64,000 bases of DNA from NCBI RefSeq assembly GCF_001742745.1, contig NZ_MJAK01000006.1, positions 62,001 to 126,000 on the forward strand. The letters are read 5' to 3'. The notes beneath the pieces were generated by a model. That model had not been told where the DNA came from. It worked only from the letters and a program-made list of their open reading frames with translations, and ran no database searches. How positions within the stretch are numbered: position 1 is the first letter of the stretch; each line of letters starts with the position of its first letter. The DNA comes from Curtobacterium sp. ER1/6 (GTDB lineage: Bacteria; Actinomycetota; Actinomycetes; Actinomycetales; Microbacteriaceae). The position numbers and the translations under genes were made by a program. This document shows, piece by piece, positions 3,459 to 43,825 of this stretch.

Positions 3459-3713
3459 TCAGCGCCACCGAGTGGTCATGAGGAAGCCGACGAACATGAT
3501 GCCGAAGCCGATGAGGATGTTCCAGGAACCGAGGGTCGGCACCGGCAGCGTCGTGTTCGAGATGTAGAAGACGATCACCCACGCGAGGCCGACGAGCATG
3601 AAGCCGAACATGACCGGCTTGAACCACACGGGGTTGGGCTGGTCACCCGCCGTGTCGACCGAGTCGGCTCGGGTCCTCCGGGCGGGCTTGGTGCGGTCCT
3701 TGTCCTTGGCCAT
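3459..3713 (-). CDS. crgA: cell division protein CrgA
   Basis: An 84-aa protein with a charged N-terminus (MAKDKDRTKPARRTRAD) and two transmembrane helices (KPVMFGFMLVGLAWVIVFYI and WNILIGFGIMFVGFLM), the standard CrgA layout. In actinobacteria CrgA is a septum protein that interacts with FtsZ, FtsQ and penicillin-binding proteins. The motif NPVWFKPVMFGFML and the ending TTRWR are typical. It is divergent from the glutaminase gene at 3796. The DnaA-box cluster lies just past its 3' end. Confidence 0.95.
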   Translation of the reverse strand: MAKDKDRTKPARRTRADSVDTAGDQPNPVWFKPVMFGFMLVGLAWVIVFYISNTTLPVPTLGSWNILIGFGIMFVGFLMTTRWR

Positions 3714-24884: not shown

Positions 24885-24928
24885 CGACGCGGGACGACCC
24901 GGCCACCGCGGCGGGACCGACCACGCAA

Positions 24929-24972
24929 CGGACGGGAGGCGCGGTGCCGGCCCGCCCCGTGCCTCCCGTCCG
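24929..24972. repeat. dispersed palindromic element, copy 4
   Basis: CGGACGGGAGGC (24929-24940) and GCCTCCCGTCCG (24961-24972) lie between the convergent TetR and hexosaminidase genes. The centre is imperfect. Confidence 0.8.
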
Positions 24973-35052: not shown

Positions 35053-35096
35053 CGGACGGGAGGCGCGGTGCGGGCCCGCACCGCGCCTCCCGTCCG
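35053..35096. repeat. dispersed palindromic element, copy 5 (perfect 44-bp palindrome)
   Basis: Both 22-base halves are exact complements with no spacer: 35053-35074 (CGGACGGGAGGCGCGG, then TGCGGG) and 35075-35096. It begins 4 bp after the permease stop, between convergent genes. Confidence 0.9.
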
Positions 35097-38633: not shown

Positions 38634-39140
38634 TCACCCGTAGCCCTCGCTGTACAGCCGCCAACCGTCGGCGGTGTGGCGGAAGCAGAACTGCCACCCC
38701 GCGAGCGTCCCCGGGTCGTCGCCGGTCATGTTCGTCTGCGTGACGTCCACCGGGATGCACTGCACCGCGACCCCGCCGTTCTCGTCCGCGGGCCGTCGCT
38801 CGACGCTGCCGACGTTCCGGTGGGCGAGCAGGTCCGGGTGCTCGTCGAGCCAGGACGTCGGCTGCCGCTGCCCGCACCACGCCTGGTCGGGTGACGACGG
38901 TGCGTGCGCAGCCGTGAGGGCTTCGGTCACCGCGCAGTCGTGGGCCTCGGCGGCGCGGAGGTACACCCGCAGCACCTGCTCCGACGAGGCGCTCGCCGGA
39001 GGGAGGCGTCGCGCGGTCTCGGCGGCGTGCTCGAGGTGCACGCCGACGCCGGCCCCCGTGACGACGACGGCCAGCGCGGCAGCCGGCACGAGGACCGGCA
39101 GGCCCCGTCGTCGTGGTGCTCGGTCGTGCGTCGTGTCCGT
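38634..39140 (-). CDS. membrane-anchored exported protein, apparent ACG start
   Basis: A frame of ~168 codons encoding a basic N-terminus (HDRAPRRR), one helix (LPVLVPAAALAVVVTGAGVGV) and an outside domain with four cysteines (HDCAV, AWCGQ, VQCIP, QFCFR) and GWRLYSEGYG. A strong AGGAGG (39145-39150) is followed at 4 bases by ACG, not ATG; no ATG/GTG/TTG lies in frame near it. The first in-frame GTG (39089) would remove the basic residues. Either ACG starts translation or the gene lost its start. No family is recognised. Confidence 0.6.
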   Translation of the reverse strand, partial: TDTTHDRAPRRRGLPVLVPAAALAVVVTGAGVGVHLEHAAETARRLPPASASSEQVLRVYLRAAEAHDCAVTEALTAAHAPSSPDQAWCGQRQPTSWLDEHPDLLAHRNVGSVERRPADENGGVAVQCIPVDVTQTNMTGDDPGTLAGWQFCFRHTADGWRLYSEGYG

Positions 39141-39414
39141 GGCGCCTCCTTCGACAAGCGGTCGGATCCCCCTCGTCCCGACCCTGACACGGCACCCCTT
39201 CCGTCGGCATCCTCCTGCGGGACGAAGCCGACCGGCCGGTCGGCTGGTCGGACCGTCGGAACGACGACGCACGGTGCCGGAGCCAGCAGGGAGTCCCTCA
39301 GCCCGTGACACGAGGGAAGCCTGTGGTATATCACACGCGGTCCCGGGGTCCTTTCCGCTTACGGTCGGACTGCCGGGAGTGAAGGCCTCCCGGTTCTCGA
39401 GAGAGGGAGGAACC

Positions 39415-39969
39415 ATGTCGAACTTCCGGAGCCGATCGATCGGTGTCGCACTCGCCGGCGCTCTCGTCATCACCGGCGGGCTGGTCAACGCACCCGTTGC
39501 GAACGCTGCCACTGGCCCACCGGTCGACGCGTCCGTCGTCCCGATCGACGCCGGCAGCCGTCCGCTCGCGATGGAGACCGTCCGGCGAGCCGTCGAGGAA
39601 GCCCGATCGGCAGGTGCTGTCGCGGACGAGCGTACCGAGGCCGACGGAACGAAGACCGTCGTGATCGAGGGCGACGACGGGGCAACGCTGGAACTGAACA
39701 CGGGCGGGACCAGTGCTCGGCTGGGTGCTGGGACCGACAAGTACGGCATGTTCGTCGCCTTCAACGCGTTCGACCAGAACCTGATCATCAGCGGTGCGTT
39801 GACGGCGATCGCGTCCGGCATGTGCGCGCTCGGTCCCGCGGTGTGCGCAGTCGCCCAGGTGGCTGCACTCCTCGCCAGCAACGCCATCAGCAACGGTGGT
39901 GGTGTCCGGTGCGGTACCAAGTCCCTCCGCGTCTACCCGATCTCGCACAGGGCACCCCGGTGCGCCTGA
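39415..39969 (+). CDS. secreted protein with hydrophobic Cys-containing C-terminus, bacteriocin-like
   Basis: A 184-aa protein. GGGAGG precedes the ATG. The signal peptide (SIGVALAGALVITGGLVNAPVANA) is cut near residue 29-31. A polar acidic region (~30-120) leads to a hydrophobic segment (NLIISGALTAIASGMCALGPAVCAVAQVAALLASNAISNGGG) and a basic tail with two more Cys (VRCGTKSLRVYPISHRAPRCA). A pro-region plus hydrophobic, cysteine-bearing C-terminus resembles precursor layouts of secreted antimicrobial proteins. The family is not recognised. The next gene overlaps it. Confidence 0.7.
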   Translation: MSNFRSRSIGVALAGALVITGGLVNAPVANAATGPPVDASVVPIDAGSRPLAMETVRRAVEEARSAGAVADERTEADGTKTVVIEGDDGATLELNTGGTSARLGAGTDKYGMFVAFNAFDQNLIISGALTAIASGMCALGPAVCAVAQVAALLASNAISNGGGVRCGTKSLRVYPISHRAPRCA

Positions 39970-40184
39970 AGGCCCGAGCCGTGGCGTCGGTCCTGACGAA
40001 CGTCTGGTTCGCGGTCGCCGTTGCCGTGGTGCTGCTGGTGGCCGGCTCTGCGTTCTTCTCCAGCACCGTGGACACGCCCTATCAGTGGGTGGGCGCGGCG
40101 CTCAACGGGCTCGCCGTGGGGGTGAGCGGCGTCTACGTCGGCACGACGGCTCGCCATCCCCGTCGACGGGACACGAGGCCCTGA
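39960..40184 (+). CDS. 74-aa membrane protein, candidate immunity protein
   Basis: GTG at 39960 lies inside the 3' end of the secreted-protein gene (10-bp overlap). It encodes two transmembrane helices (VLTNVWFAVAVAVVLLVAGSAFF and WVGAALNGLAVGVSGVYVG) and a basic C-terminus (RHPRRRDTRP). Small basic two-helix proteins directly after a secreted peptide gene are often immunity proteins; that role is inferred from layout only. Confidence 0.65.
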   Translation: MRLKARAVASVLTNVWFAVAVAVVLLVAGSAFFSSTVDTPYQWVGAALNGLAVGVSGVYVGTTARHPRRRDTRP

Positions 40185-40189
40185 ACCGA

Positions 40190-40230
40190 CGGACGGGAGG
40201 CGCGGTGCCAGCTGGCACCGTCCTCCCTCG
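40190..40230. repeat. dispersed palindromic element, copy 6 (decayed right arm)
   Basis: CGGACGGGAGGCGCGG begins the left arm. The centre GGTGCCAGCTGGCACC (40204-40219) is a perfect 16-bp palindrome, identical to that of copy 7, but the right arm is broken. Confidence 0.7.
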
Positions 40231-40241
40231 CAAGCTCGGTC

Positions 40242-40288
40242 GGCGCGCCCCGCACAACGCTTCGCGTTGCCGCTGAGCGGGGCGCGCC
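40242..40288. terminator. long hairpin between convergent genes
   Basis: GGCGCGCCCCGC (40242-40253) pairs with GCGGGGCGCGCC (40277-40288), and AACGC/GCGTT form an inner stem. It lies 16 bp past the oxidoreductase stop. Confidence 0.75.
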
Positions 40289-40303
40289 CGTCCTGGTGGC
40301 TGA

Positions 40304-43775: not shown

Positions 43776-43825
43776 GGACGGACGGGAGGCGCGGTGCCAG
43801 CTGGCACCGTGTCTCCCGTCCGTCC
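43776..43825. repeat. dispersed palindromic element, copy 7
   Basis: A 50-bp near-perfect palindrome with GGACGGACGGGAG (43776-43788) and its complement (43813-43825), centre GGTGCCAGCTGGCACC. It lies after the MFS gene and before a gene on the same strand, so it is not limited to convergent gaps. Confidence 0.85.

Follow-up and report, generated by a model that had tools for sequence, protein, structure and literature searches.

In the SDP system of Bacillus, the toxin derives from SdpC, a Sec-secreted precursor with a pro-region; the toxin itself is hydrophobic and has a pair of cysteine residues, and a dedicated membrane protein provides immunity. A second secreted antibacterial protein is CmmAMP-I of Clavibacter michiganensis (Liu et al. 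2013, a reference cited in PMC7259588). CmmAMP-I is reported to have a mass of about 14 kDa, to be secreted through Sec, and to inhibit a close relative; it is not known to have homologs. For Rhodococcus erythropolis JCM 2895, a review describes RapA (Kitagawa et al. 2018), a small heat-stable antibacterial protein, together with the immunity protein RapB, which may lie in the membrane, and places rapA and rapB on a 5.4-kb plasmid (PMC7502451). The genome announcement for the same strain reports two plasmids of such kind (PMC9753674). For Curtobacterium, a 2024 paper on actinobacterial bacteriocins lists this genus and Microbacterium among those without described bacteriocins (PMC11580447), although flaccumfacin, the name given to temperature-resistant bacteriocins of Curtobacterium flaccumfaciens, was reported by Gross and Vidaver in 1979, as summarized in a later source (PMC11206981).

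We analyzed a window of 64,000 nucleotides from Curtobacterium sp. ER1/6, in which two adjacent small genes, here termed A and B (Table 1), had been proposed to form a toxin/immunity pair. From their sequences and those of their relatives, we consider it likely that A is the precursor of a Sec-secreted bacteriocin and that B is its dedicated immunity protein. A–B combines a predicted secreted product with an adjacent membrane gene that is kept without the proposed toxin in other strains, features of the bacteriocin/immunity class. The nearest described layout is that of RapA and RapB, for which the review describes an antibacterial protein, small and secreted, and downstream of it a small immunity protein of the membrane. 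Plasmid pREC01 (L156) carries a 93-aa secreted ORF (705–986) and, downstream of it, a basic two-helix ORF of 65 aa (1020–1217), and from the plasmid size and layout we infer that these are rapA and rapB. Unlike A, the RapA candidate is only half as long and has a different cysteine spacing. Homology was not detected by hhalign either between alignment A3 and the RapA candidate or between alignment A2 and the RapB candidate (probability 0.2 in both cases), so that A–B resembles RapA–RapB in layout but not in sequence.

Similar likenesses and differences emerge with the other systems. A and SdpC have in common a Sec precursor, a pro-region, a hydrophobic toxin (a proposed role in the case of A) with a Cys pair, and a membrane immunity protein. 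A differs from SdpC in its four cysteines and basic tail, and an SdpC-type model is absent among its NCBIfam matches; no SdpA- or SdpB-like neighbors of A were noticed. Without its signal peptide, A has a computed mass of 15.3 kDa, similar to that of CmmAMP-I, and Sec secretion is a further likeness; CmmAMP-I could be a member of the A family. Flaccumfacin comes from the same genus as A, and the passage that summarizes it names no gene. One may speculate that the A family holds the missing genes behind the Curtobacterium bacteriocin activity of 1979.

Table 1 Features of the A–B locus, numbered from the first nucleotide of the window
Feature	Position	Strand	Basis
Gene A, precursor of proposed bacteriocin, 184 aa	39415..39969 (incl. 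stop codon)	+	ORF, ribosome-binding site, homologs, dN < dS
Signal peptide of A, residues 1–31, predicted cleavage ANA-A	39415..39507	+	By eye, sequence and alignment A1
Acidic pro-region of A, residues 32–102, pI 4.4	39508..39720	+	Charge and alignment; evolves faster than core
Basic core of A, residues 103–184, Cys 137/144/166/183	39721..39966	+	Conserved columns, 30 members
Gene B, proposed immunity protein of the membrane, 74 aa, basic, two helices	39960..40184	+	ORF, homologs behind A and orphan copies
Accessory segment carrying A and B	39252..40187	.	Absent, with ~130 bases instead, at the same site in two Curtobacterium genomes

The ATG start of A at 39415 is preceded by a good ribosome-binding site (gagagggaggaacc). 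By eye, the N terminus opens with basic residues, continues as a hydrophobic segment, and ends at the predicted cleavage site, and similar signal-peptide-like N termini are seen in the aligned homologs. The signal peptide is followed by a pro-region that is polar as well as acidic, in agreement with the original prediction of a signal-peptide protein with a polar pro-region. The prediction also named a hydrophobic segment with two cysteines and a basic cysteine-containing tail, and both are found in the core, which has a computed mass of 8.2 kDa and pI of 9.2: Cys137 and Cys144 lie in a hydrophobic stretch (residues ~120–160), and Cys166 and Cys183 in a tail (residues 161–184) with a computed pI of 10.9. 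The core is marked by an FN..DQ motif, a hydrophobic hairpin region, and an LRVY....RC tail, and the N, D, and Q residues and all four cysteine columns are invariant in an alignment of 30 members. From this conservation we place the boundary between pro-region and core at Arg102, a residue that varies in the distant member sequences. Structure prediction, which had been suggested as a check, gave a weak model, and we base no structural claim on it: the AlphaFold model of the precursor has helices in the core (~118–125, 128–139, and 141–160), but its confidence is too low for reliance (mean pLDDT 61.2, pTM 0.51), and Foldseek matched it to no fold in the PDB at E ≤ 0.001.

Both ORFs were confirmed from the sequence at the positions first assigned to them, including a 74-aa basic two-helix product for B. 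B has a pI of 11.6, two hydrophobic segments, and basic ends; therefore, both ends are predicted to lie inside the cell. The reported overlap of the two genes depends on the start codon of B. A start at GTG 39960 gives a 10-base overlap with A, whereas the alternative GTG 39981 gives a 67-aa protein and abolishes the overlap; in several homologs, B starts 3 to 17 bases after the A stop, leaving a gap instead.

The view that neither protein belongs to a known family holds for A, since Pfam, NCBIfam, PHROGs, PADLOC, and PDB sequences yielded nothing usable either for A itself or for its relatives, and is qualified for B by a subthreshold match to DUF2530 (Pfam PF10745; E 5e-5, 23.9 bits against a cut-off of 25.5). 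Neither Pfam nor NCBIfam has a curated model of SdpC or of another bacteriocin family that matches A, and bacteriocin models were likewise absent among the Pfam matches of 20 A relatives and the NCBIfam matches of 30. DUF2530 matched at E ≤ 0.1 in only one of 20 B members. With a score under the gathering cut-off and a match not common to its relatives, we rejected the assignment of B to DUF2530. Assignments of single B members as holins or DUFs were rejected as well, these being weak Pfam matches of a generic two-helix type. An Rfam scan was empty, and neither a sigma-70-type promoter nor a U-tailed terminator was found.

The association of A with a two-helix gene is close and extends well beyond the window. 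At each of the 20 A loci from the 60 Curtobacterium genomes, the start of a B-type ORF falls within −25 to +17 of the A stop; this and the finding of dN < dS in both genes (pairwise, nine pairs) place the layout beyond chance. We also applied a fixed criterion for pairing (an ORF of 45–110 aa that has exactly two hydrophobic segments and a net charge of at least +2 and that starts between −60 and +120), by which a basic two-helix ORF follows A at 44 of 51 loci (19/21 in Curtobacterium and 25/30 elsewhere). As background, the window and ten named loci supplied 897 other ORF ends, of which 8 passed this criterion, a count in which we kept one ORF antisense to an A copy; under a stricter background, it was 7 of 920, six of which are A–B pairs themselves. 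Another background match, an 84-aa two-helix ORF in the window (~3459–3713, minus strand), resembles the cell-division protein CrgA. Where the criterion fails, L012 and L018 do contain a B homolog that misses the hydropathy cut-off, the candidate in L048 is 130 aa long and lies at +91, and L055 has an 81-aa two-helix ORF that is divergent and upstream of A rather than downstream (L118 2443–2688, minus strand). No partner candidate was found for A in L050, L052, and L054 (3 of the 51 loci examined). The original prediction had named as evidence against it any homolog of the secreted protein that lacks the membrane gene. None was seen in the genus, and such cases are confined to distant members: the three loci for which no candidate was found and, with its two-helix gene in divergent orientation, L055. 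For these counts, L056–L058 and L064 had been dropped as spurious, L062 because it duplicates L061, and L065 because it duplicates L050; the L154 protein is the same as that of L153 and was also dropped, L072 was left out for its cut flank, and the near-identical L042–L044 were entered as three loci.

A is patchily distributed among close relatives of the window's genome. It is present in 17 of 99 relatives searched. All 17 are among the 60 Curtobacterium genomes, and together they hold 20 A loci. In a draw from the Microbacteriaceae, 21 of 398 genomes matched A; three of these were judged spurious, and the 18 that we kept fall in nine genera. With the A3 core profile, 9 matches were obtained among 297 genomes at the level of the order and 2 among 396 at that of the phylum, the latter two being the window's own genome and one judged spurious. 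A tblastn search with more distant members found A relatives on four Corynebacterium and two Rhodococcus plasmid records, in all of which they are annotated as hypothetical proteins. The family therefore ranges across the Microbacteriaceae, other actinomycete families, and plasmids of Corynebacterium and Rhodococcus. This distribution bears on the idea that A acts on a eukaryote such as a plant, fungus, or insect while B shields the producer membrane. Curtobacterium lives on plants, a habitat that would suit such a target, but patchy occurrence within one genus and the retention of B alone (see below) fit competition between bacteria, and the plasmids with distant A–B pairs come from skin, milk, and soil bacteria; we regard a eukaryotic target as highly improbable.

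We also considered whether A or B belongs to a phage or a plasmid at the window locus and rejected this: neither the 50,697 phage records nor the 72,556 plasmid records matched the window's own A, its B had no match in the plasmid records, and 11 pattern stretches in viral contigs included no relatives. Several of the plasmids with distant members carry other small gene pairs in the vicinity. On both Rhodococcus plasmids, a Fic/VbhA toxin–antitoxin pair lies within ~0.5 kb of A–B (L153 4066–5123 and L154 4207–5264), and on a Corynebacterium bovis plasmid, a RelE/HigA toxin–antitoxin pair lies ~0.9 kb upstream of the A relative (L151 1327–1909). On the Rhodococcus qingshengii plasmid, A–B is followed by a second small two-helix ORF (L154 3832–4020), possibly a second immunity gene.

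At the window's own site, the pair is gained or lost as a unit. In two Curtobacterium genomes, G055 (L121) and G023 (L123), the flanks up to 39246–39251 and from 40188 are joined by the ~130 bases noted in Table 1, which are unrelated sequence, whereas G054 (L122) and G015 (L127) carry A–B at the same site. G055, empty here, carries A at two other places. The gene to the left of the pair (~38634–39210, minus strand) is conserved beside the site both with and without A–B, and it seems to encode a small cysteine-containing protein that is either secreted or anchored to lipid. On the right, between B and an oxidoreductase gene, there is a near-perfect palindrome (40188–40227) that recurs in the window at 43777–43810, with shorter pieces at 24928–24948 and 35053–35071, and is repeated tens of times in the genome on both strands; it could be a REP-like element or a type of terminator without a U-tail. 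Since the repeat borders the pair, we considered a mobile element as the carrier of A–B. The site that lacks the pair also has the palindrome, however, and most other A loci do not, so that it does not explain the movement of the pair. A longer repeat of ~102–114 bases, which in the window spans ~107 bases (40188–40295), occurs at four other places in the genome with 87–92% identity.

The two genes differ in how they are retained. A profile of B identified 45 places in the 60 Curtobacterium genomes, counted at E ≤ 1e-7 because weak matches of so short and hydrophobic a protein could arise by chance; 20 are behind A, and 25 are without an intact A. Remnants of A are found beside three of the 25 orphan copies: the C-terminal 14 residues in L097, the N-terminal 67 in L107, and 34 residues near the end in L113. 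An intact ORF with a start codon is preserved in 22 of the 25 orphans, and dN < dS relative to the nearest relative holds for all 22. The converse, A without B, was not seen among the 60 genomes. Decay of A beside a whole B is also seen in L022, where the signal of A is gone along with the greater part of the pro-region, and in L051 and L061/L062, which have internal losses in A. Loss of a toxin with retention of its immunity explains this asymmetry simply; a structural partner or a maturation factor does not. A could in principle be a secreted envelope or structural protein, such as an adhesin or surface-active protein, with B as its membrane partner or chaperone, a reading that the secretion signal, hydrophobic core, and tight pairing would also fit. 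We consider it improbable in view of the numerous open B copies under dN < dS that lack an intact A, the presence of A in fewer than a third of the genus genomes (17/60), and the gain or loss of the pair at a site.

Where A and B occur together, they diverge together: over 19 loci (L022 was left out), the distances of A and B correlate with r = 0.855, a value reached by none of 2000 permutations. In the nine pairs, dN/dS is lowest in the A core and higher in the pro-region and in B; the pro-region of the truncated L022 was too short to judge in its pair. This co-divergence and the translational overlap would also suit a role for B in the maturation or export of A rather than in immunity, as SdpA and SdpB serve SDP. 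Such a function for B nevertheless seems quite unlikely, as a dedicated factor would not be expected to outlast A, yet B does, and a protein of 60–85 aa with two helices leaves little room for an enzyme. In another arrangement, A would be a signaling precursor, or pheromone, with B as its membrane receptor; the pro-region is in keeping with this, and the orphan B copies could then be orphan receptors. The flanks that were read show no regulator conserved at the pair, a hydrophobic core of 82 residues with four cysteines would be an unusual signal, and the tails and loops of B are short, making this a very remote prospect. The toxin/immunity layout of the original prediction is thus supported, as an inference, by the absence of A without B in the genus, the orphan B copies, the decay of A, and the co-divergence of the pair.

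In the bacteriocin reading, A would be exported through Sec and its signal peptide removed. Until its cleavage or displacement, the acidic pro-region may mask the core, which is hydrophobic and basic, and so hold it in a soluble, harmless state. Presumably held by two disulfides, the core would then insert as a helical hairpin into the membrane of Gram-positive bacteria closely related to the producer, making this membrane leaky and so killing the target. In the producer membrane, B would form a hairpin of two helices, with its basic ends both on the inner side, and could protect the cell by blocking insertion or assembly of the core. Against the bacteriocin reading we counted the weak AlphaFold model and its lack of a PDB fold match, the partnerless L050, L052, and L054, the lack of a detected promoter or terminator, and the absence of sequence homology between A–B and RapA/RapB.

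In the accessible portion of the literature on Curtobacterium, Clavibacter, and Microbacteriaceae bacteriocins, which has most subscription papers outside its scope, we recognized no account of the A–B pair. The best reading of A–B is as an actinobacterial bacteriocin/immunity family that is unnamed in the searched databases. A wider claim, to which we give an even chance, is that A–B founds a large family of this kind, with a four-Cys N..DQ core, a range from chromosomes to plasmids, diverged partners, and a reservoir of orphan immunity genes. If our reading is right, A–B would provide a concrete Curtobacterium gene pair for bacteriocin work and a route to many more such pairs that are now called hypothetical proteins in genomes. 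It would also point to natural producers and to immune and sensitive strains for competition studies in plant- and skin-dwelling actinobacteria.
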